A DNA stretch of 64,000 nt from Dehalococcoidia bacterium (lineage in GTDB: Bacteria; Chloroflexota; Dehalococcoidia; Bin125): NCBI GenBank assembly GCA_022828105.1, contig JAJEJC010000001.1, positions 300,090 through 364,089 of the forward strand. Direction: 5' to 3'. Below are positions 3,394 through 62,175 of this stretch, in pieces. The notes beneath the pieces were generated by a model. That model worked only from the letters and a program-made list of their open reading frames with translations, was not told where the DNA came from and made no database searches. Both the position numbers and the translations under genes were made by a program. Each line of letters begins with the position of its first letter. The stretch's first letter is position 1.

Positions 3394-4539
3394 ATGTCCG
3401 AACGCGACACCCGCGCCGTGCGATTGACCGACCTCGCCCGCTGCGGCGGTTGAGGCTCCAAGTTCGGCCCCGAGGGGTTGGCTCACGTGCTGAGCCATCT
3501 CGGTCCCCAGTTCCCGCCCGAGCAGCACCCTGAGTTGCTCGTCGGACTCGCGCGCCCCGACGACGCCGCCGTCTACGCGATCGACGACGAACGGGCGCTC
3601 GTGCAAACGCTCGACTTCTTCGCGCCGCTGGTCGACGACCCCTACCAGTTCGGCGCAATCGCCGCCGCCAACGCCATGTCCGACGTCTACGCGATGGGCG
3701 GGCGCGTGCTCTTCGCGCTCAACATCGCGGCCTTCCCTGAGGACCTGCCGCCCGACGTGATCGCCGATGTCCTGCGCGGCGGCGCGGACAAGGTGCGCGA
3801 GGCAGGCGCCGTGATCGCCGGCGGACACACGATCATCGACGAGGAACCCAAGTACGGGCTCGCGGTGACCGGCGAGGTCGCCCGCGACCTGATCCGCACG
3901 ACCGGCGGTGCGCAGCCCGGCGACACCATCATCCTGACCAAGGAGATCGGCACCGGCGTCCTGATCGGCGCCAACCAGCAGGGCGCGGTCTCCGAGGAGC
4001 ACTGGAACGCCGCCGTCGCCCAGATGATGACGCTCAACCGCGACGCCGCCGAGGCCGCCTCCGACCCCGACCTCGCCCAGGGCGTCCACGCCATCGCCGA
4101 TGTCACCGGCTTCGGCCTCGCCGGACACCTGCACGAGATGGCCGAACTCAGCGACGCCGCGATTGCAGTCGACCTCGGCGCAGCGCCGGCCCTCGGCGGA
4201 CTCGCCGAAGCCGTCGCCGCCGGATTCGGCTCCGGCGGACTGTCTCGCAACCGCGAGTACTACGGCGCACGCCTCACTGTTCACGGCGAACGCGAACTGA
4301 CCACCTTCGAAGAAGCCCTGCTCTACGACCCGCAGACCTCCGGAGGCCTCTTGATCGCGGCCGGAGTCATCGAAGCCCCGCATCTGATCAGCGAACTTCA
4401 ACAACGCGGCGTCGCCGCGACGCCTATCGCCCGAGTCACTGAACAGATTCACAGTGGACGCTTGACGGTCAATCCCTCCGAGACTCCGCGCTCCGGCGAT
4501 CCCCTCTCCCCCCGCTCCACGGGGGGAGATGTCTCGTAG
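3394..4539 (+). CDS. selD: Selenide, water dikinase with selenocysteine (in-frame TGA at 3451-3453)
   Basis: Makes selenophosphate from selenide and ATP for selenocysteine and selenouridine synthesis. Reading through the TGA gives RCGGUGSKFGPEG, so Sec is residue 20 and the catalytic Lys is residue 23, exactly where SelD carries Cys or Sec. The rest is a full AIR-synthase-like fold with GGHTI and DVTGFGLAGHLHE motifs, 381 residues in all. A conventional gene caller would start at TTG 3478 and lose the active site. The last 12 codons and the TAG stop come from a palindromic repeat at 4501-4553, so the native C-terminus has been replaced or extended. Confidence 0.92.
3471..3502 (+). promoter_or_regulatory. 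Candidate bacterial SECIS hairpin in selD
   Basis: Downstream of the TGA, GGCTCA (3480-3485) pairs perfectly with TGAGCC (3491-3496) around the 5-nt loop CGTGC. CGAG (3471-3474) can extend the helix with CTCG (3499-3502) across an internal loop. The apical loop begins about 32 nt after the TGA and has G as its second base, which fits the spacing and loop rule used for bacterial SECIS elements. No folding program was run. Confidence 0.6.
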
Positions 4540-4553
4540 AGACAGAGGGGGGC
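4501..4553 (+). repeat. Palindromic element, selD 3' end
   Basis: Forward-orientation copy: a C6/G6 hairpin, a second hairpin TGTCTC-GTA-GAGACA, then GAGGGGGG. It encodes the last residues of SelD; the stop codon TAG (4537-4539) is the loop of the second hairpin. The terminal AGAGGGGGG lies just upstream of the next ATG (4560) and may act as its ribosome-binding site. Confidence 0.85.
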
Positions 4554-4559
4554 TTTCCG

Positions 4560-5789
4560 ATGCCTGACCACGACGCAGAGATGGCCGACGTCGCCGTCAT
4601 CGGCGCAGGCATCCTCGGACTCTCCACCGCCATGGCGCTCGCGACCAGGCACGACGGCCTCCGCGTCGTCGCCCTCGAGCAGGAATCCGGCGTCGGACGG
4701 CACCAGAGCGGTAACAACTCAGGCGTCATCCACTCCGGCCTCTACTACCGGCCCGGCTCGGCCAAGGCCCGCATGGCCGTCGCCGGCGCCGAGCGCATGT
4801 ACGCCTTCTGCGACGAGCACGGCATCGGCGCGGAGCGCTGCGGCAAGGTCGTCGTCGCCACGCACGACTCCGAGCTCGAGCGCATGCGCGAATTGCACCG
4901 CCGAGGCGACGCCAACGGCGTGCCCGGCATTCGCGAACTCGGACCTGACGAGCTGCACGAGTTCGAGCCCAACGCCGCAGGCGTCGCGGCCCTGCACATC
5001 CCATCAACCGGAATCGCCGACTACCGCGGCGTCTGCGAGAAGTACCGCGAATTGCTCGAATCCGCCGGCGGCTCCGTCCGCCTGCGCTCCCGAGTCTCAG
5101 GCGTACGCGTCGACTCCGACGGCGTTCAGCTCGCGACCGGCACCGGAGTCGTCCGCGCGAAGTTTGCCGTCAACTGCGCCGGACTCCAGGCCGACCGCAT
5201 CGCCCGACGCGCCGGCGCGGCCGAAGCCCGAGACTTGCGCATCGTCCCCTTCCGCGGCGAGTACTACGATCTCGTCCCCGCCGCCCGCGGCATGCTCAGG
5301 AACCTCATCTATCCCGTCCCCGACCCCGCCTTCCCCTTCCTCGGCGTCCACTTCACCCGCCGACTCGACGGCACCGTCGAGGCCGGACCCAACGCCATTC
5401 TCGCCCTCAAGCGCGAGGGCTACCGCTGGCGCGACATCGCGCTCCGCGACGCCGCCGAGTCGCTTTCCTGGCCCGGCTTCCTCCGCCTCGCCCGCGACCA
5501 CTGGCAGACCGGCCTCGGCGAAGTCTGGCGCAGCGCCAACAAGTCCGCCTTCGTCAACGCCCTGCGCCGCCTGATGCCCAACCTCGAACCCGACCAGCTC
5601 GTCCGAGGAGGAGCCGGAGTCCGAGCCCAGGCCCTCCGCCGCGACGGCAGCCTGGCGGACGACTTCGAGATCGCCCACCAGGACCGGTTGATTCACATCC
5701 TGAACGCCCCAAGTCCCGGCGCGACCGCGTCACTGCTGATCGGCGAGGAGATCGCAGCAAACGCAGAATCGGCGTGGTTGGGCGGATAG
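4560..5789 (+). CDS. lhgO: L-2-hydroxyglutarate oxidase/dehydrogenase
   Basis: A 409-residue FAD-dependent DAO-fold enzyme that oxidises L-2-hydroxyglutarate to 2-oxoglutarate. It shows the dinucleotide motif VIGAGILGLST near residues 12-22, the family signature HQSGNNSGVIHSGLYY with the covalent or near-FAD histidine, the PFRGEYYDL block, and the C-terminal GGAGVRAQ and NAPSPGATASL motifs. Only 20 bp separate it from the selD stop. Most of that gap is the palindromic element, whose purine-rich end serves as the only visible ribosome site. Confidence 0.9.
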   Translation: MPDHDAEMADVAVIGAGILGLSTAMALATRHDGLRVVALEQESGVGRHQSGNNSGVIHSGLYYRPGSAKARMAVAGAERMYAFCDEHGIGAERCGKVVVATHDSELERMRELHRRGDANGVPGIRELGPDELHEFEPNAAGVAALHIPSTGIADYRGVCEKYRELLESAGGSVRLRSRVSGVRVDSDGVQLATGTGVVRAKFAVNCAGLQADRIARRAGAAEARDLRIVPFRGEYYDLVPAARGMLRNLIYPVPDPAFPFLGVHFTRRLDGTVEAGPNAILALKREGYRWRDIALRDAAESLSWPGFLRLARDHWQTGLGEVWRSANKSAFVNALRRLMPNLEPDQLVRGGAGVRAQALRRDGSLADDFEIAHQDRLIHILNAPSPGATASLLIGEEIAANAESAWLGG

Positions 5790-5798
5790 GCTGCCGTT

Positions 5799-8700
5799 AT
5801 GGCGAGCTCCAACCCGATCTGGTCCGACGACCTCCTCAATCGTTGGCTGCCCGAGCAGCCCGAGTACCGAGAACTCGTAGACGATCCGGCGCCGCTCCAC
5901 CAGTTCCGCGACACTGCGGTCGGGCTCTTGGCCGCCTATGTCGACGGACCCGCGCCCAACGAGGCAGTCACACGCGAAGAGGTCATCCTGCCCTTGCTGC
6001 GGGCACTCGGTTGGGAACACACGCTCACCGAGCAGCCCCTGCTTGAAGGCGGAACTCCCGACCGGATGCTCTTCGCCGACGCCGAATCACGGCAGCGCGG
6101 CGCACTCTCCGACAACCCGATCGAACACGCGATCGGACTCACCGAGTGCAAGGCTTGGCTGCGCAGCTTCGACGCTCGCGGCTCCGACCCGCGACGCGGG
6201 ACGCCGGCCGATCAAGTGCGCGGTTATCTGCTGCGCGCTCACCCAGATTCCCGCGGTGGCGTCCGCTGGGCGATGCTGACAAACGGAGCCGCCTGGCGCA
6301 TCTACAGCCATGAGGCACGACCGCGGACGAGGTATTGGGAAGTCAACCTCCTCGAGATACTCCAGGTCAGCCAGCAAGGCACTCTCTTCGCGCAGAACAA
6401 CGCCGCCGAGAATCTGCACGCACTACGCGTCGCCTACCTGGTGCTGCGCCGTGACTCGTGGATCCTCGCAGGCGCTCAGCGCGAGTCATTTCTCGACCGC
6501 TTGCTGGCGGAAGGCCGGCACGCTGAGGCGAGTCTGTCGGACGACCTGTCCACGGTGGTCTTTAAGGATGTCTACCCGCAACTGGTCCGCGACCTCTGGA
6601 ACGCTGAGCCCGGCGCTTCCGCTGACGAGATAGCCCAGGCCGCGCAGACCTTCCTCTATCGGCTGTTGTTCATCTTCTATGCCGAAGACCGCGAAATGCT
6701 GCCTGTCGAGCGCGACCCGTACAGGGACAACAGCGCCCGCTATTCCCTGCGCCGCCACATCAACGAGCGCTACAACCGCGTCCCAATCTCGGCGACGTTC
6801 ACGAACTATTGGGACAATATCCAGCAGCTGAGCGGGATGGTTGACGGCGGGAACGAAGAAATCGGCATTCCCGAGTACAACGGCGGCCTGTTCGCCGAAT
6901 ATCGCCACCCGCTGCTGGGTCGCGTGAAACTCAACAACCGACAAGTTGCCAATATCATCCAACCGCTCAGTTATCGCGGCCCCGATTACATCAATTACCG
7001 CGATCTCTCCATCCGCCAGCTCGGCGGCATCTACGAGCGCCTGCTCGAACTGGTCCCCGTCCGCAGCGACGACGGTGCGGTCTCAACAGCCCTGCAGCCT
7101 TACGCCCGCAAGGATTCCGGCTCCTACTACACGCCCCAGGAACTCGTCGACTTGATCGTCGAGCAAACCCTGGGCCCGCTGGCCGACGAGCGCGAACAGG
7201 CATTCCGCGACAACCCGAGCCCCGAAAACGATCCGGCTATCGCCATTACCCGGCTGCGCGTGCTCGATCCTGCGATGGGCTCCGGACACTTCCTGCTCAC
7301 CGCCATCGACTGGCTCACGGAGCGGTTGGAGGACCTGGTGGATCGCGAATGGCCGGAAGCAAAAGGCTATGTCTCGCCTCTCCGAGAGCAGCTGTGGGAG
7401 TTGCAGGAAGAACATCCCGACCTCAGCGACTACGCCTTGCTCCAGCGCATGGTGCTCAAACGCTGCATCTACGGTGTCGACAAGAACCCGATGGCGGTCG
7501 AACTGGCCAAGGTCGCCCTCTGGCTGCACAGCTTCAGCGGAGCACTGCCGCTGCCGTTCCTGGATCATCGCCTGCTCACCGGCGACTCTTTGCTCGGCAT
7601 TCGCGCTGACGCCGCCGCCGATTTTTTCACGCAGTACGCCCCCGAGCGGTTCGGCAACCACTTTCCCGCCGATCTGGAGAACTTGCGGTCGCTCGAACAG
7701 AACGCAGCCCCGGCCCTCTCCGAGCCGCTCGATCTGCTCGTCGACGAGGTACATGCGGCAGGCGCCAAACGCGACGAGCTCCGCCCGTCATTCCAGCGCA
7801 TTCGGCGTGCCTTCAACCTAGTCGCCGGAATGAGAATGCTCGGCGTCGGGATGACGAAACGAGAACGCGACGAGTTCTTCGAGCCGGTCCGCGAGACCTT
7901 CCACCGCGGTCCCCGCCGGGCCATCGCCATCCTCTACAACGGCGAGAACCAGGCCGACCGCACCCCGACCACTCCCGAGTATCGCCAGATCCGCGACGAT
8001 GCATTCGATTTCGCCGAACGCGACCGCATTCTCCACTGGGAGATCGAGTTCCCTCAGGTGATGGCCAACGGAGGCTTCGACGCCGTGATCGGCAACCCGC
8101 CCTGGGACAAGATCAAGCTGCAAGAGGTTGAGTGGTGGGCGACCCGCGATCTGGACGTGGCACGCGCACCGACCGCTGCGGCGAGAAAGGCTTTGGTCGC
8201 TGAGCGTCGCGCACTTGATGACCCACTCGTTGCAGAATTCGATGAGGCTGCAGAACAGGCAACCCAGCTTTCGACCCTAATCCGAAAGGCCGGAGACTAT
8301 CCGCTGCTGGGAAAGGGTGACATCAACCTCTACAGCCTCTTCGTCGAGCGTTCTCTCCTGCTGCTCAAGTCGGACGGTGTTTGCGGACTGCTTACTCCGT
8401 CCGGCATCTACGCCGACAAGACCGCGGCCGACTACTTCCGTTCGATCTCGACTACAGGCCGGCTGGGCGGCATCTATGACTTTGAGAATCGGCGTTCGGC
8501 TAATCGCAGCGCGAAAACAGCCAAGTGGTTCGACGACGTGCATCCTCAGTTCAGGTTTTGTGCCACGATCACCGGGGGCACCTCACGTGTTTTCGCAAAG
8601 GCCATTTGCGGCTTCCTTCTGAATGGGCAGGCTGATCTCGACGATAGGGACCGTGTTTTTCCTTTGTCGCCTGAAGACTTCTCCACCATCAATCCGAACA

Positions 8701-12090: not shown

Positions 12091-13278
12091 ATGACTACCA
12101 ACGACCACCTCCTTCCGCCACTCGACGGCATCGTCGTCATCAACGCCGGACAGATCCTCGCCGCGCCCCACTGCGCCACCATGCTCGCCGAGTTCGGGGC
12201 CGACGTGATCAAGGTCGAACGACCCGGCAGCGGCGAGCCGAATCACGGCACCATCTCTTACGTGCAGGAGAACCGCTCGCAGCGCGGCGTGACCTGCAAT
12301 CTTGCCGATCCGCGAGGCAAGGACCTGTTCCGCCGGTTGTGCGCGCGGGCCGACGTGCTGATCGAGAACTTCCGACCGGGCACGCTGGAGAAGATGGAGC
12401 TCGCGCCCGACTCGCTGCGCGAACTCAATCCCAGACTGGTCGTGACCCGAGTCTCCGGCTACGGCCAAACGGGACCATACCGCGAGCGGGCCGGCTTCGA
12501 CCGTGTTGCGTTGGGCTTCGCCGGGATGACCTACCAGACCGGTTGGGCCGACGGTCCGCCCGTGCGGCCGGGCTACATGGTCGCCGACTACTCGGCCGGC
12601 GTCTTCGCCGCGATGGGCACGCTGATGGCGCTGCGCGCGCGCGACGTCAACGGCGGCGTGGGGCAGGATGTCGACGTGGCGCTCTACGAGGCGATCTGGA
12701 AGCAGTCGGGCACGCACGCCTCGCAGTTCGCGCACAGCGGCCGCAACAGAGAGCGCAGCGGCAACTACTGGCCCGGCGTCGTGCCGGCCGAGCAGTGGCC
12801 GACGGCCGACGGCCACCACCTGATCATCAACGCGACCACGCAGGGCACGTTCGAGCGGCTGGTGGCGGCGATGCAGCGGCCGGAGTTGCTCAGCGACCCG
12901 CGCTTCGAGGTCCACGCGATTCGGCGCAAGAACTACGAGGCGATTCACGAGATCGTGGGTGAATGGGTCGGCTCATTGACGCTGGAGCAGGTCCAGCACC
13001 TGCTCGACCAGCACGGCGTCCCCGCGACCAAGGTCTACGCGACTTCCGACATCATGTCGGACGAGCACTACGCCGCCCGCGAGCAGATCGTGGCCGTACC
13101 CTCGGAGCAGCACGGGGCCATGCCGCAACCCGGTATCGTCCCGCGTCTGACCAGAACGCCCGGCGCCGTGAAGCACCGCGCCCCGACGCTCGGCGAGCAC
13201 AACCGTGAAATCTACGGCGGTCTGCTCGGCGTCAGCGATGACAAGCTGCGCCAACTCTCGGAGGATGGAGTGATCTGA
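12091..13278 (+). CDS. CaiB/BaiF family CoA transferase
   Basis: A 395-residue class III CoA transferase (intertwined-dimer family) that moves CoA between organic acids. It has the N-terminal PLDGIVVINAGQILAAPHCATMLAEFGADVIKVE block, the VLIENFRPGTLEKM motif and a GQDVDVALYEA segment around the residue that carries the acyl intermediate in the family. The substrate cannot be inferred. It is translationally coupled (ATGA-type overlap at 13278) to the MaoC-like genes, suggesting a shared acyl-CoA activation and hydration pathway. Confidence 0.9.
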   Translation: MTTNDHLLPPLDGIVVINAGQILAAPHCATMLAEFGADVIKVERPGSGEPNHGTISYVQENRSQRGVTCNLADPRGKDLFRRLCARADVLIENFRPGTLEKMELAPDSLRELNPRLVVTRVSGYGQTGPYRERAGFDRVALGFAGMTYQTGWADGPPVRPGYMVADYSAGVFAAMGTLMALRARDVNGGVGQDVDVALYEAIWKQSGTHASQFAHSGRNRERSGNYWPGVVPAEQWPTADGHHLIINATTQGTFERLVAAMQRPELLSDPRFEVHAIRRKNYEAIHEIVGEWVGSLTLEQVQHLLDQHGVPATKVYATSDIMSDEHYAAREQIVAVPSEQHGAMPQPGIVPRLTRTPGAVKHRAPTLGEHNREIYGGLLGVSDDKLRQLSEDGVI

Positions 13279-14137
13279 TGACCACCGCGATTGTTGAACG
13301 CACGATCACCGCCTTCCTCGACGGCGACGACTCGCTGGAGATCAACAACATCATTCACTCCACGGCCGGCGCGGCGCGCTTCGGATACACGGGACCACTG
13401 GTCGGCGGCACGACGGTGTACTCCTGGTCGGTGGCGGCATTGGTCGAGGCGTTGGGCGACGCCTGGCTTGACCAGGGCTGGGTCGAGTTCCAGTTGCGAA
13501 AGCCCGTCTATCCGGGTGAAGTGATCACCACTCAAGTGAATCTCTCTCCCCCCGCTCCGCGGGGGAGATGTCCCGTAGGGACAGAGGGGGGCCGGCGGCG
13601 GTCGAGTTCACGATGGCCAAACACGCCGGCGACATTGCGGTCAGGGGCACCGCCGGACTAGGCATCACCGACTTCAATGCCGAGATCACCGAGGCCACTG
13701 ATCGCACCCCAGTCGCCCAGCCCGAAGAGCGCCCCTTCATCACCAGGGCGCTGGCTCCGCTCGGCGAAGTCCTGCCCGCCATGTCCATCGACCTGAGCTC
13801 CGCCGAAGCGGAGCTCTACGCCGACGAGAAGGCCCGCGACTCAGACCCGCTCTGGCGCGGCGCCGGCGCGCGCGTGCATCCCGGCTGGATCGCCCAGCGC
13901 GCCAACGCCCTGCTCGCGCACACCTGGCGATACACCGCGATCCACGCATCGAGCCAGATACAGCACCTGGCGCCGGTCCATGCGGACCAGCGACTACTGG
14001 TCAGCGGACGGCTCGCGTCGGGATACGAACGCAAGGGACACGAATACGCCGTGATCGACCTGACCATCTCGTCGGAGGACGGACGCGACCTGGTTCGGAT
14101 GCGTCAGCCGACGATCTACCAGGTCGCCGCACGCTGA
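13278..14137 (+). pseudogene. Double hot-dog (MaoC-like) protein, frameshifted inside a palindromic repeat
   Basis: Two reading frames, one from 13278 running into 13661 and one open from about 13568 to 14137, together match the intact neighbour at 14149 end to end. The frame breaks inside the repeat at 13552-13592, where the G-run is G5 instead of the G6 seen in the neighbour and in most other copies. Restoring one G would give a 286-residue protein that reads LSPPAPRGEMSRRDRGG through the element. The first half has the hot-dog motif FGYTGPLVGGTTVYSW and the second half HASSQIQHLAP. It is either a true null allele, a slippage-switchable gene or a sequencing error in a homopolymer. Confidence 0.8.
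13552..13592 (+). repeat. Palindromic element inside the first MaoC-like gene
   Basis: A forward copy with C6 but only G5 in the first hairpin, a second hairpin TGTCCC-GTA-GGGACA and a terminal GAGGGGGG. It lies at the same codon position as the copy in the paralogue at 14415. Confidence 0.85.
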
Positions 14138-14148
14138 GGAGACGAGCT

Positions 14149-15018
14149 ATGACCACGCCGACCATCGAACGCTCGATCACTGCATTCCTCGACGGCGAGG
14201 ACTCGATCGAGATCGACAACATCATTCACTCAACCGAGGGCGCGGCGAAGTTCGGCTTCACCGGCGCGCTGGTCGGCGGAGTGACCGTCTATTCCTGGGC
14301 GGTCCCGGCGCTGATCGAGGCGCTCGGCGACGACTGGCTCGACTCCGGCTGGATCGATTTCCGTCTGCGCCGCCCCGTCTACCCCGGCGACGAAATCACG
14401 ACCCGCGTCGTTAGCTCTCCCCCCGCTCCGCGGGGGGAGATGTCGCGGAGCGACAGAGGGGGGCCGCCGACAGTTGAGTTCACCATGGCCAAGGAGTCGG
14501 GCGAAGTCTGCATCGCCGGAACCGCGGGATTGGGCGAAGCCGACTTCTACGCCGACCTCGCCGTCGCGCAGAATCGCAGCGCCGTCCCGCCGGCCGACCC
14601 GCCGACCCTGCTGACGCCCGAGAACCTGCCGATCGGCGAGGACTTGCCGGCGATGGCAGTGCCGATGTCGGTCGAAGACGCGGCCGCCTACGCCGACCAG
14701 TTCGCCCGCGACCCGCACGAACGCTGGCGCGGCGAAGGCGCGCGACTGCATCCCGGCTGGATTGCCGGTCGCTGCGTGCGGCTGACCAAGCACACCTACG
14801 CCTATCCGGCCGGCATCCACGCCGGCAGTCAGATCCAGATGATCGCGCCGGCCAATGCGGGCCAGACGCTGGTCGTCTCGGGCCATGTGACCGACGGCTA
14901 CCGACGCAAGCAGCATGAGTACTGCCTGCTCGACGTGACGATCAGCGACGAATCGGGCCGCGACATCGCCCGACTCCGCCACCGCACGATCTACCAGGTC
15001 GGCGGCGGCGACGCCTAG
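14149..15018 (+). CDS. Double hot-dog (MaoC-like dehydratase family) protein
   Basis: A 289-residue protein with two hot-dog halves: FGFTGALVGGVTVYSWAVPALIEAL in the first and HAGSQIQMIAPANAGQTLVVSGHV in the second. It is probably an enoyl-CoA hydratase/dehydratase-like enzyme. A classic MaoC catalytic motif (D-x4-H) is not clear, so activity is not assured. Residues about 89-106 (SPPAPRGEMSRSDRGG) are encoded by the palindromic element, placed between PVYPGDEITTRV and TVEFTMAKE, probably in a surface loop. It lies 11 bp after its frameshifted paralogue, so the pair arose by tandem duplication. Confidence 0.8.
   Translation: MTTPTIERSITAFLDGEDSIEIDNIIHSTEGAAKFGFTGALVGGVTVYSWAVPALIEALGDDWLDSGWIDFRLRRPVYPGDEITTRVVSSPPAPRGEMSRSDRGGPPTVEFTMAKESGEVCIAGTAGLGEADFYADLAVAQNRSAVPPADPPTLLTPENLPIGEDLPAMAVPMSVEDAAAYADQFARDPHERWRGEGARLHPGWIAGRCVRLTKHTYAYPAGIHAGSQIQMIAPANAGQTLVVSGHVTDGYRRKQHEYCLLDVTISDESGRDIARLRHRTIYQVGGGDA
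14415..14464 (+). repeat. Palindromic element inside the second MaoC-like gene
   Basis: A forward copy with full C6/G6 hairpin and second hairpin TGTCGC-GGA-GCGACA, open in frame for 17 codons. Compared with the copy in the paralogue, the second stem shows paired changes (CC/GG to GC/GC). Confidence 0.88.
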
Positions 15019-20599: not shown

Positions 20600-20622
20600 G
20601 AACGTACGTTCCTCTCAAGAGG
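20600..20622. promoter_or_regulatory. Palindromes in divergent intergenic region
   Basis: GAACGTACGTTC (20600-20611) is a perfect 12-bp palindrome, followed at once by CCTCT-CA-AGAGG (20611-20622). Both lie in the 184-bp gap between the divergent scaffold and CoA-transferase genes, a position expected for an operator. No regulator gene is adjacent. Confidence 0.35.
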
Positions 20623-20699
20623 AAATCAAGCGTCAGCGGCCAACGGTTGTGTTCGGCGCTACCGAGTTCGACTACGGGCAGCGCCGCTATCCTGCGCCA

Positions 20700-23126
20700 A
20701 TGCTCGACGACACGCGAGTGCTCGACCTGACCGACGAACCGCTCGCGCTGGGCGCGCGGCTGCTCGCCGACCTGGGCGCGGAGGTCGTGCGCATCGAAGA
20801 TGTGCGCGGCGACGGACTGCGGCTGCGGGAACCGGCGGTCGAGTCGAACGCGCCGCGCGAAGAGCGCGGCTGGGCGCACCTGCTCTACAACGCCGGCAAG
20901 CGTTCCGTCGCCGTCGAATTCGACGACCCGGCAACCTGGACACGGATTGAAGCCCTGTTGCCTCGGTTCGACGTGCTGCTTGCGCCGTTGGAGCCGCGGG
21001 GCCGGCTGGCGGGCTGGCTCCAACGCGGACGCGAGGGCCGCTGGTCATCCGAGATCCCGGTGGTCGACGCCGTGTTCCGTCGCGGCGCAGATGAGCCAAT
21101 GACCGACCTGACCGCGATGGCGGCGGGCGGCCACGTGGTGCTCAATGGGCATCCACAGGATCCGCCGGTCTGGCCCGCCGGCAATCTCTCGCACAAGCAG
21201 GGATCGCTGGCCATGGCCGAAGCAGCGATGGCCCTGATCTTCCAGCGCCGGCGCGGAGCCGGTAGCGGCCGAATTTCTGTTTCGATGCAGGAAGCCGTCG
21301 CCTTTACGACTCTGCAGACGGCCAGCGGCAACTTCTGGACCTGGCACGGCATGTCGCCCGACCGGCACATCCCGATTGGCTCGGGTGCGACCTTCCAGGC
21401 GGGCGACGGGCACTGGGTCTCGTTCACGATTCATCCACCGCACTGGCCGCGATTCGTCAACTGGGTCGACGAGGTGCTTGGCGCCCCCGAACTTCGCGAG
21501 CCGCAATGGGACGACGAGTTTTATCGCGAGGCCAACTACGACGAGATCAGGCCGTGGATCGAGCGGCTCTGTGGGGCGCTGACTGTGACCGAACTGCACG
21601 ATCGGGGGCAGGAACTCGGCTTGCTCGTGCTTCCGATCAACACGGTCGAAGAAGTCGCCCGCGACCCCCATCTGCGGGCGCGCGGGTACTACCAGGACGT
21701 CGAGCACCCACAGCTCGGCCGCACGCTCACGTTGCCGCGCCCCGCCGTGCGCACGCGAGGCGAACAACCCCGCGCTGTACGCGCCCCCATCCTCGGCGAA
21801 CACAACAGTGAACTGTTCGATGCCGAGCGCTCTCTCTCCCCCCGCTCCGCGGGGGGAGATGTCGCGGAGCGACAGAGGGGGGCGCCTTCTGCCACCCTCT
21901 ACAACACCCAACCCGCGCCGCGCCGGCCGCTGGACGGCGTGCGAGTGCTCGACTTCACCTGGGCGATCGCCGGATCGCTCGGCACGCGCCTGCTCGCCGA
22001 CCTCGGCGCGGAGGTAATCAAGATCGAGTCCGAGTCGCGCATCGATCCAATCCGCTATCGCGGGGTGCAGCCACCCGATCAGTTCTCGATCAACACCAAT
22101 GGCACCTTCAATGACTGCGCCGGCGGCAAGAAGTCGGTCACGCTCAATCTCAAGACCGAAGAGGGGATCGAAGCGGTCCGCCAACTGGCCCGGCACTCCG
22201 ACGTGGTCACCTCCAACTACACGCCCTATCGACTCGACCGCTGGGGCATCGGCTACGACGACCTGCGCCGAATCAAGGACGACATCATCGTCTGCAACGT
22301 GGCCGTAATGGGCATCGAGGGTCCGCGCGCCGAGTGGCGCTCCTATGGCAACGGGATCATCGCCATGTGCGGCCTGTCGCATCGCTCGGGATTCCCCGGC
22401 CGCGCGCCGATTGGCCTCGGCACGCTGCACTCCGACTTCACCGTGCCCTTCTACCTCGCCGCCTCGGTGATGGCCGCGCTCGACGACCGCGAGCGCACGG
22501 GCAACGGACGGTACCTCGAGATTGCCCAATACGAGACCGCCGTGCAGTTGCTGGACACCGAGCTGATCGAGGCGCTGAACGGCGTTGTCGAGCGTCCGCG
22601 CATAGGCAACCGCTCGCCGTTTATGTCGCCGCACGGCGTCTTTCCCGCCGCCGGCGAGGATCGCTGGGTGGCCATTGCGTGCCGCGACGACGCCGATTGG
22701 CGCAATCTCTGCCGCGTCATCGGCCGCGCAGACCTGGCCGGACGGAGCGATCTGTCGCATGTCTCCGGGCGCCAGGCCAGCGAGGATGTGCTGGAAGCGG
22801 CGGTTTCCGAGTGGACTCGCTCGCAGGACGAGTGGACCTCGTACCGGCTGCTGATTAACGCCGGCGTCCCCGCCAGCCCAGTCGAGCGGCTGGAGGACTT
22901 CTTCGCGGGCCAGGACGCGGCGATGCGCGACGCCTACCATCCCGCCGACTCGCCCGAGGGCTGCAGCTTCCAGATCATCAGGGAGCCGGTGCTCTGGGAC
23001 GGCGAGCGGCTGCCCGCGCGCCGCGCGCCGCTGTGGGGAGAGCACACCGAGGATGTCCTCAAGGGCCTGCTCAACTACAGCGACGACGACATGATCCGCC
23101 TCGCCGCCGCCGGCACGCTGGGCTAG
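20700..23126 (+). CDS. Tandem CaiB/BaiF CoA transferase (two domains fused via a palindromic element)
   Basis: An 808-residue protein with two class III CoA-transferase domains. Domain 1 (about 1-375) starts LDDTRVLDLTDEPLALGARLLADLGAEVVRIE and holds GRISVSMQEAV around the catalytic position. Domain 2 (about 409-808) starts PLDGVRVLDFTWAIAGSLGTRLLADLGAEVIKIE and holds YLEIAQYETAV. Both have Glu where formyl-CoA transferase has its catalytic Asp. Residues 377-394 (SLSPRSAGGDVAERQRGA) are encoded by a palindromic repeat, so two once-separate genes may have been joined by an element that removed the first stop. It is flanked by phage genes on the opposite strand. Confidence 0.88.
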   Translation: MLDDTRVLDLTDEPLALGARLLADLGAEVVRIEDVRGDGLRLREPAVESNAPREERGWAHLLYNAGKRSVAVEFDDPATWTRIEALLPRFDVLLAPLEPRGRLAGWLQRGREGRWSSEIPVVDAVFRRGADEPMTDLTAMAAGGHVVLNGHPQDPPVWPAGNLSHKQGSLAMAEAAMALIFQRRRGAGSGRISVSMQEAVAFTTLQTASGNFWTWHGMSPDRHIPIGSGATFQAGDGHWVSFTIHPPHWPRFVNWVDEVLGAPELREPQWDDEFYREANYDEIRPWIERLCGALTVTELHDRGQELGLLVLPINTVEEVARDPHLRARGYYQDVEHPQLGRTLTLPRPAVRTRGEQPRAVRAPILGEHNSELFDAERSLSPRSAGGDVAERQRGAPSATLYNTQPAPRRPLDGVRVLDFTWAIAGSLGTRLLADLGAEVIKIESESRIDPIRYRGVQPPDQFSINTNGTFNDCAGGKKSVTLNLKTEEGIEAVRQLARHSDVVTSNYTPYRLDRWGIGYDDLRRIKDDIIVCNVAVMGIEGPRAEWRSYGNGIIAMCGLSHRSGFPGRAPIGLGTLHSDFTVPFYLAASVMAALDDRERTGNGRYLEIAQYETAVQLLDTELIEALNGVVERPRIGNRSPFMSPHGVFPAAGEDRWVAIACRDDADWRNLCRVIGRADLAGRSDLSHVSGRQASEDVLEAAVSEWTRSQDEWTSYRLLINAGVPASPVERLEDFFAGQDAAMRDAYHPADSPEGCSFQIIREPVLWDGERLPARRAPLWGEHTEDVLKGLLNYSDDDMIRLAAAGTLG
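21831..21882 (+). repeat. Palindromic element forming the interdomain linker
   Basis: A forward copy, C6/G6 first hairpin, second hairpin TGTCGC-GGA-GCGACA, then GAGGGGGG. It is read in the same frame as the copy in selD (LSPRS-GGDV) but escapes the stop because its second-hairpin loop is GGA rather than GTA. Confidence 0.88.
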
Positions 23127-26657: not shown

Positions 26658-26700
26658 ATGCCGTATCTCCTCGATACCGACTGCGTCACTCCGGCCATCT
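26658..26700 (+). pseudogene. 5' remnant of a PIN-domain (VapC-like) toxin gene
   Basis: The ATG at 26658 reads MPYLLDTDCV, the classic beginning of a VapC-type PIN RNase with its first catalytic Asp. After about 12 codons the sequence becomes the antisense of the terminase 3' end (its stop is at 26686-26688) and shows no PIN similarity. The toxin therefore seems broken exactly at the edge of the terminase block. Confidence 0.6.
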
Positions 26701-28161
26701 TGCGATGCGGCCGCGGGGCGGCAGCTCGATCCGGACCCTGCCCGGCGCCGACCGGGGCTGGGCGGCGAGCTCGTGCATGTAGCGATCAGCGTCGAGCAGG
26801 TCGTCGTTGCGCTTGAGCGGCCTCGGCGCATGGTCGGGCGCGGAGCGGTCCCACTGATAGTCGCGAATGCGAGCCGCGAACTGTGACATGCCCGGCGTGA
26901 AGTAGGAGCTGGGCGGATCGCAGTTGAGGCGCTGTTGCACCAGCGAGATACCCCAGCTCACCGAGTCGGGTCCGCCCTTGCTGGGCACGACCCGATTGCC
27001 CTGACGCCGCTGGTGATCGATCCATGCGGACTGCGATCGATCCGCGCACCACTGGATCGGTCCGAGTTTGAGCCGCCAGTCGCGTTGCCATTGTTCGAGA
27101 CGTTCGGTGACGCCGGGCCCGCGATCCTCGAACTCGCCGAGGCGGATCAGGATATTGGCGGGGAGCCCCCCTCTGCCTTCGGCATCTCCCCCCGCTGACG
27201 CGGGGGGAGAAGGGAAGGAGATGATGCCGCTACTTCCTCCTGCCGGCGCGGGGGGAGAAGGGAGACCCGAGGTGATGCCGGCGACGACGCCTGCTGTGTA
27301 GTGGTCGCGGGGCGACTGTCCGCCAAAGTCGAGGCCGCCGATGTAACGGGCGAAGGCCGGCAGCGGCGCTTCCCAGCAGTGCCGCGCTGCGTCGAAGTGC
27401 TGATAAATCTGACCGTCGAATGCATCGAATCGCCCCTCGATGAAGCGATCGACCCATTCGCCCGGTTGGAGCGCCCGTTGTTGGGCGGCGTAGTTGCCGG
27501 GCAGATGCGGGTTGTCGGGAATCCTGGCGGGGATGTACACGACTCGCCCATCGGCGGCGGCGAGCGCGTCCTCATCGAGTTCGCGCCGGGCGAACCAGCG
27601 CTCGAACCATCCCGGCCAGGGATTGGAGGCGGCGACGAACCAGCGCTGCGGCTGGGCCGGATGGCGCAACCTGGTGAGCAGCATCAGCGCGGCCTCCTCG
27701 GCGACCTCGCCGGCTTCGTCCACGAACACCGCTCCGTACTGCTCCGACCCCAGTCCCGACCAATCCGTCAGGTGACGAAAGTGGATTGTCGAGCGCACGC
27801 CCGCAGGCCAGGACCGGTCGCGGATTGCCACCCATTGCGGCGCCGAGCGCTGACGATCGACGATCAGTCGCTGCGGCAGACAGTCGAAGAACTCCCGCAT
27901 CGTGGTGGTCTGCAGATTCGAGTAGTGCTGGCGGGCCACCAGGATGTTGGTGCCGGCGAATGCCAGCGCGGTGTCGATCGCCAGCTCCGCGATCGCGCGG
28001 GTCTTGCCGCCACCCATCGCGCCGCCGTACCCGACCAGCGAAAGACCTCCCTGCGGCGTGCATCTCAGCGCCTCGTACACGTCGAGCTGGCGGTCCGTCG
28101 GCAGGAACCGGCGATTCTGAGAGTGTGCGCCGAGTGCGACCGCGCGCTGCTCATCCATCAT
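26686..28161 (-). CDS. Phage terminase large subunit (TerL) with repeat-encoded insert
   Basis: A 491-residue DNA-packaging motor protein. Walker A is GGAMGGGKT (46-54), Walker B is AVFVDEAGE (from 144), and the RNase-H-like nuclease starts at YIGGLDFGG with Asp278; a second acidic site is WCADRSQS and a late one NDDLLDADRY. Residues about 300-333 (with SPPAPAGG and SPPASAGGDAEGRGG) are encoded by one full and one partial palindromic element inside the nuclease domain, between its first strand and ANILIRLGEFEDRG. The ATG at 28161 has GGAG at 5-nt spacing and overlaps the small-subunit gene by 11 bp. All visible catalytic residues are kept despite the insert. Confidence 0.9.
   Translation of the reverse strand: MMDEQRAVALGAHSQNRRFLPTDRQLDVYEALRCTPQGGLSLVGYGGAMGGGKTRAIAELAIDTALAFAGTNILVARQHYSNLQTTTMREFFDCLPQRLIVDRQRSAPQWVAIRDRSWPAGVRSTIHFRHLTDWSGLGSEQYGAVFVDEAGEVAEEAALMLLTRLRHPAQPQRWFVAASNPWPGWFERWFARRELDEDALAAADGRVVYIPARIPDNPHLPGNYAAQQRALQPGEWVDRFIEGRFDAFDGQIYQHFDAARHCWEAPLPAFARYIGGLDFGGQSPRDHYTAGVVAGITSGLPSPPAPAGGSSGIISFPSPPASAGGDAEGRGGLPANILIRLGEFEDRGPGVTERLEQWQRDWRLKLGPIQWCADRSQSAWIDHQRRQGNRVVPSKGGPDSVSWGISLVQQRLNCDPPSSYFTPGMSQFAARIRDYQWDRSAPDHAPRPLKRNDDLLDADRYMHELAAQPRSAPGRVRIELPPRGRIARWPE
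27164..27264 (-). repeat. One full and one partial palindromic element inside terL
   Basis: The full copy is 27164-27213 with second hairpin TGCC-GAA-GGCA. A partial copy at 27233-27264 keeps the G6 arm. Both run in the coding orientation of terL and stay open in frame. Confidence 0.82.
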
Positions 28162-28417
28162 CAGCGCTCCGATCGTCATCGCCGGCGGCTGCCGAACTCA
28201 GATCGGGCGTCAGCCGGATCACTGGTACGCCGCCGTCGTCCTGACTGTCGCGGAACATGCCGATATCCCGGCCCATTAGCTCCCAGGCGCGCAGTCGAAC
28301 GTTCTCCGAGTCCGCCTCGCGCGCCAGGAGGCGAATGCCGGCCAGCACCTCCTCGCGCGTCACGCGCGCGAAGGAATCTTGATCGACACGGTCGTCGTCG
28401 TGGTCTGACTCCGGCAC
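28151..28417 (-). CDS. Terminase small subunit-like protein
   Basis: An 88-residue protein containing EEVLAGIRLLAREADSENVRLRAWELMGRDIGMF, which resembles the helical oligomerisation end of phage TerS proteins (the ENxRxRAxELLGKxxGMF pattern). The usual N-terminal DNA-binding helix-turn-helix is missing or reduced. A GTG at 28417 follows a GAGAGAGAGGGG ribosome site and is preferred to the TTG at 28471. It sits directly upstream of terL, the normal order. Confidence 0.65.
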   Translation of the reverse strand: MPESDHDDDRVDQDSFARVTREEVLAGIRLLAREADSENVRLRAWELMGRDIGMFRDSQDDGGVPVIRLTPDLSSAAAGDDDRSADDG

Positions 28418-58472: not shown

Positions 58473-59882
58473 GTGAGCGCAAACGCGAGCAAGCAGGCCG
58501 CAACCGTTGGAGAGTTGAAGCTATCCGGCTACCAACCTCGCACGGTCAGGGAGGAAATCCGCGACAACTTGATCAAGCGGCTTGAAGCCGGGGGGCCGCT
58601 GTTCCCCGAAATCCACGGCTATGAAGACACCGTCGTCCCGGCACTGGAGAACGCGCTGCTGGCCGAGCAGGATGTGATCTTCCTCGGCGAGCGCGGCCAG
58701 GCCAAGAGCCGCATGATCCGCGCCCTGACCGGCCTGCTCGACGAGGAGATCCCGACCCTGGACGGCGTCGAGATCTATGAAGAACCGCTCGCCCCGATCT
58801 CGGTCGAGGGCAAGCAACGGACCGAGGAGTTGGGAGACGACGCGCCGATCCGCTGGGTCCCGCGCGCCGACCGCTACGGCGAAAAACTGGCCACGCCCGA
58901 CATCACGATCGCCGACCTGATCGGCGAGGTCGACCCGATCAAGGTCGCCGAGGGCCGCTACCTGTCCGACGAACTGACGATTCACTTCGGCCTGATCCCG
59001 CGCACCAATCGCGGCATCTTCTGTATCAACGAGCTGCCCGACCTGGCCGAGCGCATCCAGGTCGGCCTGCTCAACATCATGGAGGAGCGCGACGTTCAGA
59101 TTCGCGGCTTCCGCGTGCGACTGCCGCTCGACGTGCTGATCGTCGCCTCGGCCAATCCCGAGGACTACACCAATCGCGGCCGGATCATCACGCCGCTCAA
59201 GGACCGCTATGGCGCCCAGATCCGCACCCACTACCCGTCGGAGCTGGAGACCGAGCTGGAAATCGTCTCGCAGGAGTCGGTGCCGATGGCCGCTCCCGGA
59301 CGCAACCTGAACACGCCCGACTACATGGCCGAGATCGTGGCCGAGATCGTGCGGCTCGCCCGCCGCAGCCCCGATGTGGCCCAGCGCTCGGGCGTCTCGG
59401 TGCGCGCCTCGATCGCCGGTTACGAGACGCTGACCGCCAATGCGATGCGACGCGCCATCCTCGCCGGCGAGGAGCAGGTCGCGCCGCGCATCTGCGACCT
59501 CTGGCATCTCGCCCCTGCCCTGCAGGGCAAGATGGAATTGGAAACGGTCGACGAGGGCGCGGACGAGAAAGTGATAGAGAAGCTGATCGCCGGCGCCATC
59601 GCCGTCGTCTTCGGCCGCTACTTCGAGTTGGGAGCGCTGGAGCCGGTGATCGCGGAGTTCAAATCGGGCATCGCGGTCGAGGTCGGCGAGGCGCTCAAGG
59701 CAGGCGACTACGCCTCGATCGTGGGCCGAATCGAGGGTCTCGACGAGGCGCTGCAGCCGCTCAACGTGGGCGAAGACGCCGCCTCGATCGCCGCCGCCGT
59801 CGAATTCCTGCTCGAGGGCCTGCACCTCAACAAGCGCCTCAACAAGGACGTCGTCGGAGGCAGCATCTTCTACCGCGCCTAG
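58473..59882 (+). CDS. AAA+ ATPase, magnesium-chelatase ChlI/MoxR-like
   Basis: A 469-residue AAA+ ATPase. Walker A is GERGQAKS (72-79), with Ala where most P-loops have Gly; I recall the same from actinobacterial relatives. Further motifs are IFCINELPDLAERIQVGLLNIMEERDVQIRG (Walker B and ChlI insert), VIVASANPEDYTNRGRIITPLKDRYG (sensor 1 and arginine finger). Such proteins form rings that act with VWA partners as chaperones or metal insertases. The GTG at 58473 has AGGAG at 5-nt spacing; an upstream ATG at 58374 would overlap the HypE-like gene. The VWA gene follows directly. Confidence 0.87.
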   Translation: MSANASKQAATVGELKLSGYQPRTVREEIRDNLIKRLEAGGPLFPEIHGYEDTVVPALENALLAEQDVIFLGERGQAKSRMIRALTGLLDEEIPTLDGVEIYEEPLAPISVEGKQRTEELGDDAPIRWVPRADRYGEKLATPDITIADLIGEVDPIKVAEGRYLSDELTIHFGLIPRTNRGIFCINELPDLAERIQVGLLNIMEERDVQIRGFRVRLPLDVLIVASANPEDYTNRGRIITPLKDRYGAQIRTHYPSELETELEIVSQESVPMAAPGRNLNTPDYMAEIVAEIVRLARRSPDVAQRSGVSVRASIAGYETLTANAMRRAILAGEEQVAPRICDLWHLAPALQGKMELETVDEGADEKVIEKLIAGAIAVVFGRYFELGALEPVIAEFKSGIAVEVGEALKAGDYASIVGRIEGLDEALQPLNVGEDAASIAAAVEFLLEGLHLNKRLNKDVVGGSIFYRA

Positions 59883-59896
59883 ACTGCCTGCTACAC

Positions 59897-59946
59897 CTCC
59901 CTCTCCCCCCGTGAAGCGGGAGGAGATGCCCAAGGCAGAGGGGGGC
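59897..59946 (+). repeat. Palindromic element between AAA and VWA genes
   Basis: A forward copy with second hairpin TGCC-CAA-GGCA and GAGGGGGG. It occupies most of the 85-bp spacer between the two genes of the pair. Confidence 0.83.
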
Positions 59947-59967
59947 GATCCAACAGAGGAAGTGCCC

Positions 59968-62175
59968 ATGCCCACCCGATTCCGATACACGCAGTGGGAC
60001 GGCACGCAGGACATCCCGGCGCTTGACGCCGACGAAGTGCTGCAATCGCTCTCCGACGACCTGCTCTCATTCGGCGACCTGCAGCAAGCGCTACGCAACA
60101 TGATGCAGCGCGGCATCCGCACGCCCGACGGCGACCGCACGGACGGACTCCGCGACCTGCTGCAGCAGCTTCGCCAACAGCGCCGCCAGCAACTGGAGCG
60201 CTTCGATCTGTCCTCGGTCTTCGACGATATCCAGCAGCAGCTCGATGAAATTCTCGACATGGAGCGGGACACGCTGGACGACCGCCTCGACGAAGTCGGC
60301 CCGAGGCCGGAAGCCCCCCCTCAGTCCCTACGGGACAGCTCCCCCCCAGAGGGGGGGAGCGGGGATCAAGATCCCGCGGGTTCTCCTTCCCCCTCTAGTG
60401 GACAGATGCCGCCTTCTTCCTCTTCTCTCCCCCCCTCCGGGGGGGAGATGCCGCAGGCAGAGGGGGGGTCCCCCGACGCCGGCCTGACCGAAGACGAGAT
60501 GGAGCGGCTCAAGGAAGCGCTGCGCCAGCGGCTTGAGCGCAAGCAGGAACAGATCGAGCAGCTTCCCGAGGACGCCGCGGGTCAGATGAAGGACTTGCAG
60601 GAGTACGAGTTCGAGAACGAGGAGGCGCGGCAGAAGTACGAGGAGCTGCTGGAGCAGTTGAAGCAGTCGATGATGAATCGCTTCTTCAACGACATGAGCC
60701 AAATGATGTCCGACATGTCGCCGCAGGACATGGACCAGATGCGCGAGATGATGCAGGACCTGAACGAGATGCTGGAGCGCCAGCGTCGCGGCGGGGACCC
60801 GCGCTTCGACGAGTTCATGGACAAGTGGGGCGAGATGTTCGGCGACGACCCGCCCCAGTCGCTGGACGAGCTGGTCGAACAGATGCAGCGCCAGGCCGCA
60901 CAGATGCAGAACCTGATGTCCTCGCTGCCCGGCGAAATGCGCCAGCAACTCAACGACATGATGCAGCAGCTCATGGGCGAGATGGGCATGGAACAGGAAC
61001 TGTCGCAGCTCGCGCAGAACCTGGAAGCGCTCTATCCGATGCGCGACCTGCTCAACCAGTACCCCTTCCGCGGTCAGGAAGAGATCGACCTGCAGGCTGC
61101 GATGTCGCTGATGGGCGACATGCAGCAACTGGACGAACTTGAGCGCGCCCTGGAGCGGGTCCAGTACGGCGGCAACATCGACGACATCGACCCCGACCAG
61201 CTCGAAGAGCTGATGGGCGAGGAAGCGCGCGAGATCCTGGAGCAACTCAAACAGCTACTTGAGCTGCTTGAGGAGGCCGGTTACCTGGAGAAGAAGGGCA
61301 ACGCTTGGGAGCTGACGCCGCGCGGCAACCGGCGGATCGGCGAGAAGGCGCTGGCCGAGATCTACGCCAACCTCAAGCGTCAGAACTTCGGCAAGCACAA
61401 CGTGCCCGAGACCGGCCGCTACGGCGACCGCGCCGACGACAGCAAGCTCTACGAGTTCGGCGATCCCTTCCATCTGAATCTCAAGGAGACGATCTCCAAC
61501 GCGATCTTGAGAACGGCTCCCGAGGGCGGACCTCAGTTGCCGATCAATCTGACGCCAGACGACTTCGAGGTCTACCGTTCCGAGACGCTGACCCAGACGG
61601 CGACCGTGGTGATGCTCGACCTCTCCTGGTCGATGGCGCTGCGCGGCTCATTCCAGGCGGCCAAGAAGGTCGCCATGGCGCTCAACAACCTAATCCGGAT
61701 GCAGTACCCGCGCGACTCGCTCTACCTGGTCGGATTCAGCGCATACGCGCGCGAACTCAAGGCCGACCAACTCCCCTACGTCCGCTGGGACGAGACCGTG
61801 CTGGGCACCAACATGCACCACGCCCTGTTGATCGCCCAGCAACTGCTGGCCAAGCACAAGCTCGGCACCCGGCAAGTGATCATGATCACCGACGGCGAGC
61901 CGACGGCGCACCTGGAACAGGGACGCTCCTACTTCGCCTATCCGCCCTCGCCGATCACGATCCGCGAAACGCTCAAGGAAGTGCGGCACTGCACGAAGAA
62001 GGACATCGTGATCAATGTCTTCATGCTCGACCGCAGCTACTACTTGAAGGAGTTCGTCGACCGGGTCGCGCGGATCAACGGCGGCCGCGTCTTCTACAGC
62101 CAGCCGGACGAACTCGGCGAGTACGTCCTGCACGACTTCGTCACCCACCGCCGCAAGACGCTGAGCCGCTCCTGA
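59968..62175 (+). CDS. VWA-domain protein, partner of the AAA+ ATPase
   Basis: A 735-residue protein. The N-terminal 350 residues are a long, Gln/Met/Glu-rich helical region (for example LLQQLRQQRRQQLERF and QMMSDMSPQDMDQMREMMQDLNEMLERQ). The C-terminal VWA domain has the MIDAS motif DLSWSMA (Asp551, Ser553, Ser555), a Thr in GTNMHHALL and ITDGEPT. Residues about 115-132 and 151-168 are encoded by two palindromic elements in opposite orientation (PPQSLRDSSPPEGG and LPPSGGEMPQAEGG). The ATG at 59968 gives the family start MPTRFRYTQWDG. It is likely a cytoplasmic MIDAS adaptor for the ATPase. Confidence 0.87.
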   Translation: MPTRFRYTQWDGTQDIPALDADEVLQSLSDDLLSFGDLQQALRNMMQRGIRTPDGDRTDGLRDLLQQLRQQRRQQLERFDLSSVFDDIQQQLDEILDMERDTLDDRLDEVGPRPEAPPQSLRDSSPPEGGSGDQDPAGSPSPSSGQMPPSSSSLPPSGGEMPQAEGGSPDAGLTEDEMERLKEALRQRLERKQEQIEQLPEDAAGQMKDLQEYEFENEEARQKYEELLEQLKQSMMNRFFNDMSQMMSDMSPQDMDQMREMMQDLNEMLERQRRGGDPRFDEFMDKWGEMFGDDPPQSLDELVEQMQRQAAQMQNLMSSLPGEMRQQLNDMMQQLMGEMGMEQELSQLAQNLEALYPMRDLLNQYPFRGQEEIDLQAAMSLMGDMQQLDELERALERVQYGGNIDDIDPDQLEELMGEEAREILEQLKQLLELLEEAGYLEKKGNAWELTPRGNRRIGEKALAEIYANLKRQNFGKHNVPETGRYGDRADDSKLYEFGDPFHLNLKETISNAILRTAPEGGPQLPINLTPDDFEVYRSETLTQTATVVMLDLSWSMALRGSFQAAKKVAMALNNLIRMQYPRDSLYLVGFSAYARELKADQLPYVRWDETVLGTNMHHALLIAQQLLAKHKLGTRQVIMITDGEPTAHLEQGRSYFAYPPSPITIRETLKEVRHCTKKDIVINVFMLDRSYYLKEFVDRVARINGGRVFYSQPDELGEYVLHDFVTHRRKTLSRS
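60312..60364 (-). repeat. Palindromic element in VWA gene, reverse
   Basis: A reverse copy with second hairpin GTCCC-TAC-GGGAC and a first hairpin of C7/G7. It encodes PPQSLRDSSPPEGGSG in frame. Confidence 0.82.
60421..60471 (+). repeat. Palindromic element in VWA gene, forward
   Basis: A forward copy with C7/G7, second hairpin TGCC-GCA-GGCA and terminal G7. It encodes LPPSGGEMPQAEGG in the same frame as the MaoC copies. It faces the copy at 60312. Confidence 0.84.

Follow-up and report, generated by a model that had tools for sequence, protein, structure and literature searches.

A palindromic repeat occupies the same protein loops in several species of a Dehalococcoidia genus

Two tandem MaoC-like genes carry a repeat at the same codon position

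We analysed a 64,000-nt stretch of DNA (the window) from a Dehalococcoidia bacterium. The host genome has 2.74 Mb in 10 contigs and is 97% complete, and the window lies on its contig C4. The named relatives of this genome are Dehalococcoidia/Chloroflexota metagenome bins. Their bin names hint at sponge samples, and the group is uncultured and probably sponge-associated. Below, G000 is the genome of the window, and G001 to G014 are 14 related genomes.

In the region of interest, a CoA-transferase family III gene is followed by two tandem MaoC-like genes, termed A and B.

12091-13278, plus strand: CoA-transferase family III gene, adjoins A upstream, without the element
13278-14137, plus strand: MaoC-like gene A, frame split at the element into 13278-13661 and 13568-14137; in-frame orthologs exist in relatives
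13539-13600, plus strand: loop of A holding the element, 62 nt against 18 nt in empty orthologs
13544-13591, plus strand: element core in A, CTCTCCCCCCGCTCCGCGGGGGAGATGTCCCGTAGGGACAGAGGGGGG, with G5 at 13561-13565; one edit from the copy in locus L081
14149-15018, plus strand: MaoC-like gene B, intact, 289 aa, predicted fold like MaoC / mesaconyl-CoA hydratase
14410-14472, plus strand: loop of B holding the element, 63 nt against 18 nt in empty orthologs; at a beta-hairpin tip between predicted strands 82-89 and 108-115
14415-14463, plus strand: element core in B, with G6 at 14432-14437; in frame, reads SSPPAPRGEMSRSDRGGP; folds as two hairpins

Reading the sequence directly, we confirmed the initial annotation that one repeat sits at one site in two MaoC-like paralogs. 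A double-hairpin repeat of about 49 nt lies between ITT(R/Q)V and VEFTMAK at the same codon position in both genes. Aligning A and B with related insert-free genes, a check that the same annotation had proposed, we find that the two sites are homologous. The translation of B passes straight through the element (RVVSSPPAPRGEMSRSDRGGPPTVEF). The element of A has its nearest relative at another locus (1 edit), and that of B matches the copy at 21838 exactly.

Aligned with each other, A and B are 76-82% identical. Their spacing is 871 before the G run and 872 after it, and therefore A is one base short. This bears out the earlier observation that G5 in A, against G6 in B, splits the frame of A. 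The open reading frame at 13278-13661 leaves the frame at the element, and the remainder is open as 13568-14137.

Performing a profile search, we obtained a match of B to PF01575 (E 4.5e-5) that stays below the gathering score; a PDB sequence search gave nothing significant. We then modelled B. An alignment of 12 sequences gave a poor model (pLDDT 35), and one of 22 sequences gave a mean pLDDT of 78 and a pTM of 0.81. The best Foldseek matches of the latter model among solved structures were MaoC-like dehydratases, with a probability of 1.00, and mesaconyl-CoA hydratase, a Chloroflexus protein being among them. In the model, the insert sits at a beta-hairpin tip flanked by strands 82-89 and 108-115, and its residues 94-104 have a pLDDT under 50. 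The insert of B is thus predicted to be a disordered segment at a beta-hairpin tip.

The element is a dispersed double hairpin restricted to the genus

The element core measures about 41-49 nt and comprises two hairpins. Hairpin 1 has the form CTCTCCCCCC-loop-GGGGGGAGATG; a second small hairpin (e.g. TGTCCCGTAGGGACA) and then GAGGGGGG follow. The left border, TTCCCCTCT (TTCCCC), and the right border, CTCCCC, are more weakly conserved. The RNA of the copy in B folds into two hairpins with z = -2.55 against shuffles, and an Rfam search returned tRNAs only, with no match at the element.

Searching the window with a 32-nt pattern (up to 3 mismatches), we found 8 copies, against none in 100 shuffles. 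A looser pattern matched the genome 148 times (72 + 76), against 2 + 2 for the reversed control. These counts show that the repeat is not a chance product. We read the C/G runs of hairpin 1 in 91 copies: 81 have 6/6 and 4 have 7/7, and in the other 6, among them A, the two runs differ in length.

Matches to the pattern range from zero to a few hundred in same-genus relatives and are nearly absent from the family's other genera. In the members of the phylum that we sampled, the C/G hairpin families are of other kinds, with tails unlike those of this element. Among the genomes sampled, the element is restricted to this genus. One genus member, G008 (95% complete), has zero matches, against tens to hundreds in relatives.

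In most copies, between four and six reading frames are open. We considered whether this openness is a special adaptation and rejected the idea, because random 45-mers from the G+C-rich window come close to the same degree of openness.

The frame break in A is a one-base loss or a sequencing error

Since 81 of the 91 copies read are 6/6, the 6/5 run of A is most likely derived. No second lesion was seen in A, whose 3′ frame continues without interruption as far as the normal stop. For this 3′ part we obtained dN/dS values of 0.07 and 0.18 against two relatives (the pairs G006/G014 and G001/G005, 5′ part, were left out for a frame offset). These low values indicate that the 3′ part was under constraint until recently.

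The G5 of A is either a recent one-base loss after insertion or a local sequencing error. If the loss is real, A has either been recently inactivated or is made in two pieces. An error of sequencing or assembly has a substantial chance, though somewhat under even. The site is a hairpin with homopolymers, the assembly is probably metagenome-derived like those of the named relatives, and the 3′ part bears the mark of purifying selection noted above. On the other hand, other intragenic copies in the same assembly stay in frame across like runs. A coding-frame scan over 278 kb also gave only a couple of unexplained switches, a figure that bounds the error rate loosely because A itself was not flagged.

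The initial annotation had offered on/off switching of A by slippage at the G run, and a homopolymer does lie at the frame break. However, six bases make a short run, the 91 copies show stable run lengths, and among filled A copies only that of G000 has an off-frame length. We therefore regard a phase-variable switch as very improbable.

The MaoC loops are empty in most species and variably filled in the others

We collected A and B orthologs from the 14 related genomes, which with G000 gives 15 species and 29 gene copies. In a tree built after the insert columns had been taken out, A and B each group as a clade of their own (support 100/100), and so the A/B duplication predates the genus.

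The site is empty in 18 of the 29 copies, always at exactly 25 nt over the measured interval. All 18 empty loops keep the spacing of the outgroup, whose copies are also empty. The remaining 11 are filled, nine in frame (61, 61, 64, 64, 70, 70, 70, 106 and 178 nt) and two out of frame (69 and 183 nt). Filled copies vary in element subtype, register and unit number. G000 and G004 have a long second hairpin, B of G011 has a short type, B of G009 and A of G013 share the subtype GAAGCTG...CTGAAGGGGGG, and tandem units occur in G003 and G014. The sister species G006 and G014 show opposite filled and empty states in A and B.

When the filled label is mapped on the gene tree, 8 changes are needed, at least 6 of them on well-supported branches. 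An AU test rejects a single filled clade for all copies (p = 5.6e-5), for A (p = 3.6e-75) and for B (p = 5.5e-5). On a concatenated tree of flanks, in which MTHFR covers only 7 species, B needs 5 changes and A as few as 2. Part of the A pattern may thus go back to a single gain in the clade that unites G000, G003, G004 and G013, and some filled copies would share ancestry and have been altered later.

The original 18 nt are largely lost in the filled MaoC loops, which makes an exact return to the empty state unlikely. Lesions occur in 3 of 11 filled copies against none of 18 empty ones (p = 0.045); we take this excess as suggestive only.

In one filled copy, gene A of G004 (locus L027), a conserved Trp codon outside the insert is replaced by an in-frame TGA; the frame is otherwise intact.

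Loops of other conserved enzymes show the same alternation

We traced five further families across the genus, picked for being filled in this genome. In each of the five, one loop is empty in some copies of the gene and filled in others. Loop 2 of ValRS holds the element in sense orientation in G000, G003, G004, G005 and G014, in antisense orientation in G001, G006, G010 and G011, and in both orientations in G009. It is empty in G008, G012 and G013 and ambiguous in G002, and all filled copies are in frame. A second ValRS loop near the N terminus carries an antisense copy in G000 and a sense copy in G004. The relatives have one ValRS gene per genome, and the element-bearing enzyme should therefore be functional. 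From this single-copy state, we infer that ValRS carrying the insert is probably translated and active.

The TatD loop is empty (48 nt) in seven species and filled in six. For MurE, four species have an empty loop (15 nt) and nine a filled one; its copies mostly have a common GCGAAGC head, and the second hairpin differs. For MTHFR, nine species have an empty loop (81 nt), and in four the loop is filled or left with a remnant. As in MaoC, the old TatD loop is mostly replaced by the insert. We saw no clean target-site duplication at the filled sites.

Taking MaoC, ValRS, MTHFR, TatD and MurE together and leaving the terminases out, we find the reading frame kept at 40 of 42 filled sites, a count whose binomial value is no true probability because the 42 sites are not independent. 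Both exceptions are MaoC genes, namely A in this genome and B in G003.

Origin of the same-site copies

We think it highly likely that the element is a lineage-specific mobile palindrome, and that the same loops were hit, overwritten and expanded separately across species and in both MaoC paralogs, the G5 of A being a later loss or an error. The element would be moved by a factor acting in trans and supplied from elsewhere. It would land widely, and within a gene its translation could yield a flexible stretch of about 13-20 residues. Intragenic copies would persist only in loops that tolerate residues, selection removing the intolerable insertions. Later units would be added to earlier ones in the same loop or overwrite them. 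Several points weigh against repeated insertion. Among them are the low number of changes that A needs on the concatenated tree, the lack of a clean target-site duplication and the choice of loops already filled in this genome. Searching for a Y1/RAYT transposase, we found none in this genome; Y1_Tnp was absent from 14 of the 15 genomes, with one borderline match. Further, an old insertion whose element was later converted by another copy could look like a new hit at some sites, at MurE most of all.

In a rival history, each site received one old insertion, followed by conversion among copies, decay, loss or recombination with empty alleles of other species. The B genes of G000, G003 and G004 do have a common left boundary and register, the MurE copies mostly keep one head while the second hairpin varies, and A needs only 2 changes on the concatenated tree. 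Nevertheless, opposite orientations occur within one ValRS loop, B needs 5 changes, and the AU test rejects a single clade. The 18 empty loops with exact outgroup spacing would, moreover, require exact restoration. We hold this history to be a minority possibility.

The initial annotation had explained the shared site by an insertion that preceded the A/B duplication or by gene conversion between the paralogs. The same site and register in both paralogs of this genome would suit the former. That order of events has almost no chance of being right, since the A/B split is older than the genus, the outgroup copies and most orthologs are empty with identical spacing, and the AU test on all copies rejects it. 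The elements of A and B also have different nearest copies in the genome. Conversion of A by B is not clearly indicated, and we consider copying of the element between the two in an ancestor of G000, G003 and G004 improbable. That reading draws on the fact that both paralogs are filled in these three genomes, with similar right flanks and register. A-B identity beside the element is near the between-genome mean, except that over the 120-nt right side it is mildly above that mean in G000. Yet this excess amounts to about 1.4 s.d., and G013, where B is empty, has a larger one; the left boundaries differ, as do the nearest copies elsewhere.

Separate filling of tolerant loops by a mobile palindrome thus remains our preferred reading. 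It is conceivable, although we would rather doubt it, that the element, or whatever moves it, prefers certain gene positions, so that fixed loops receive it anew in different species and paralogs. If so, loop diversity in core enzymes would exceed what tolerance alone gives.

Relation to known coding palindromes

Coding palindromes have been described chiefly in Rickettsia, in Wolbachia and in certain bacteria with REPs, and they are usually taken as tolerated accidents. In the present genus, ValRS, MurE, TatD, MTHFR and the two MaoC loops carry different elements in different species, and the genus amounts to a natural replicate experiment. Because filled loops have empty sisters, direct study of mobile DNA that adds residues to essential enzymes becomes possible. 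One can also ask whether the choice of site reflects targeting or selection. The same feature is a warning, as gene callers and alignments will meet species-specific inserts here and sometimes split genes.

The Rickettsia palindromic elements (RPEs) enter conserved genes in frame, and at least one RPE-bearing product that was tested, guanylate kinase, was translated and active (PMC2229807, PMC10969869). By description rather than by sequence, the present element resembles them in being palindromic, dispersed and in frame in unrelated conserved genes. We find a dispersed multicopy palindrome, in frame in ValRS, MurE, TatD, MTHFR, MaoC and terminase genes, and an unstructured or exposed insert site in the MaoC-B model, the one case modelled. 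In contrast to RPEs, it belongs to another phylum, is G+C-rich, measures about 45-60 nt against 105-150 nt, and entered the same loop separately in many species. By analogy, we would class it as a protein-coding palindromic repeat that acts like the RPEs, with unusually frequent recurrence in the same loop.

As cited in PMC2996958, palindromic repeats of Wolbachia and Methanocaldococcus jannaschii are likewise coding and in frame in housekeeping genes; their hosts are unrelated to ours, and this comparison too is by description and not by sequence. PARCEL repeats are also palindromic and coding, but they form 25-residue domains in tandem, frequently within proteins whose function is unknown, whereas single inserts in enzyme loops are seen here (PMC2996958). 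GTAG/CGTC REPs share the short palindromic form, and some are intragenic (PMC3733652). Unlike them, the element has no GTAG/CGTC tag at its borders, RAYT is missing from most of our genomes, and every loop traced across species shows same-site recurrence. The sole same-site precedent that we found is recB, in which two Xanthomonas species have different REPs at about the same site (PMC3733652). Our search of the open-licence literature turned up no description of repeats of this kind from these Chloroflexota.

Further copies in the window and the genome

Outside the MaoC pair, the window holds these copies.

4504-4552, plus strand: element copy directly upstream of the start codon at 4560
21834-21882, plus strand: element copy with core identical to that of B, inside the CoA-transferase III double-domain frame 20601-23123
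27166-27207, minus strand: element copy in frame in the terminase-like gene 26689-28197; the paralog at locus L062 has a different copy in the same loop
60314-60468, no single strand: two element copies of opposite orientation in the low-complexity linker of frame 59650-62172

Scanning the stretches around other copies, we found in-frame copies in ValRS, MTHFR, TatD, MurE, CopD-like, double CoA-transferase and terminase-like genes. The terminase-like genes (window 26689-28197, minus strand, and L062:2451-4646) occur as several paralogs per genome in the genus, with one to four units in the same loop. The frames at window 20601-23123 and L059:700-3315 each fuse two CoA-transferase III domains with the element in the linker, and the element may have bridged two adjacent genes there. 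At about 377.9 kb on contig C4, positions 4561-5157 of locus L068 hold approximately four tandem 152-nt units with two opposed element copies per unit. A similar 160-nt array follows at positions 5594-5883.
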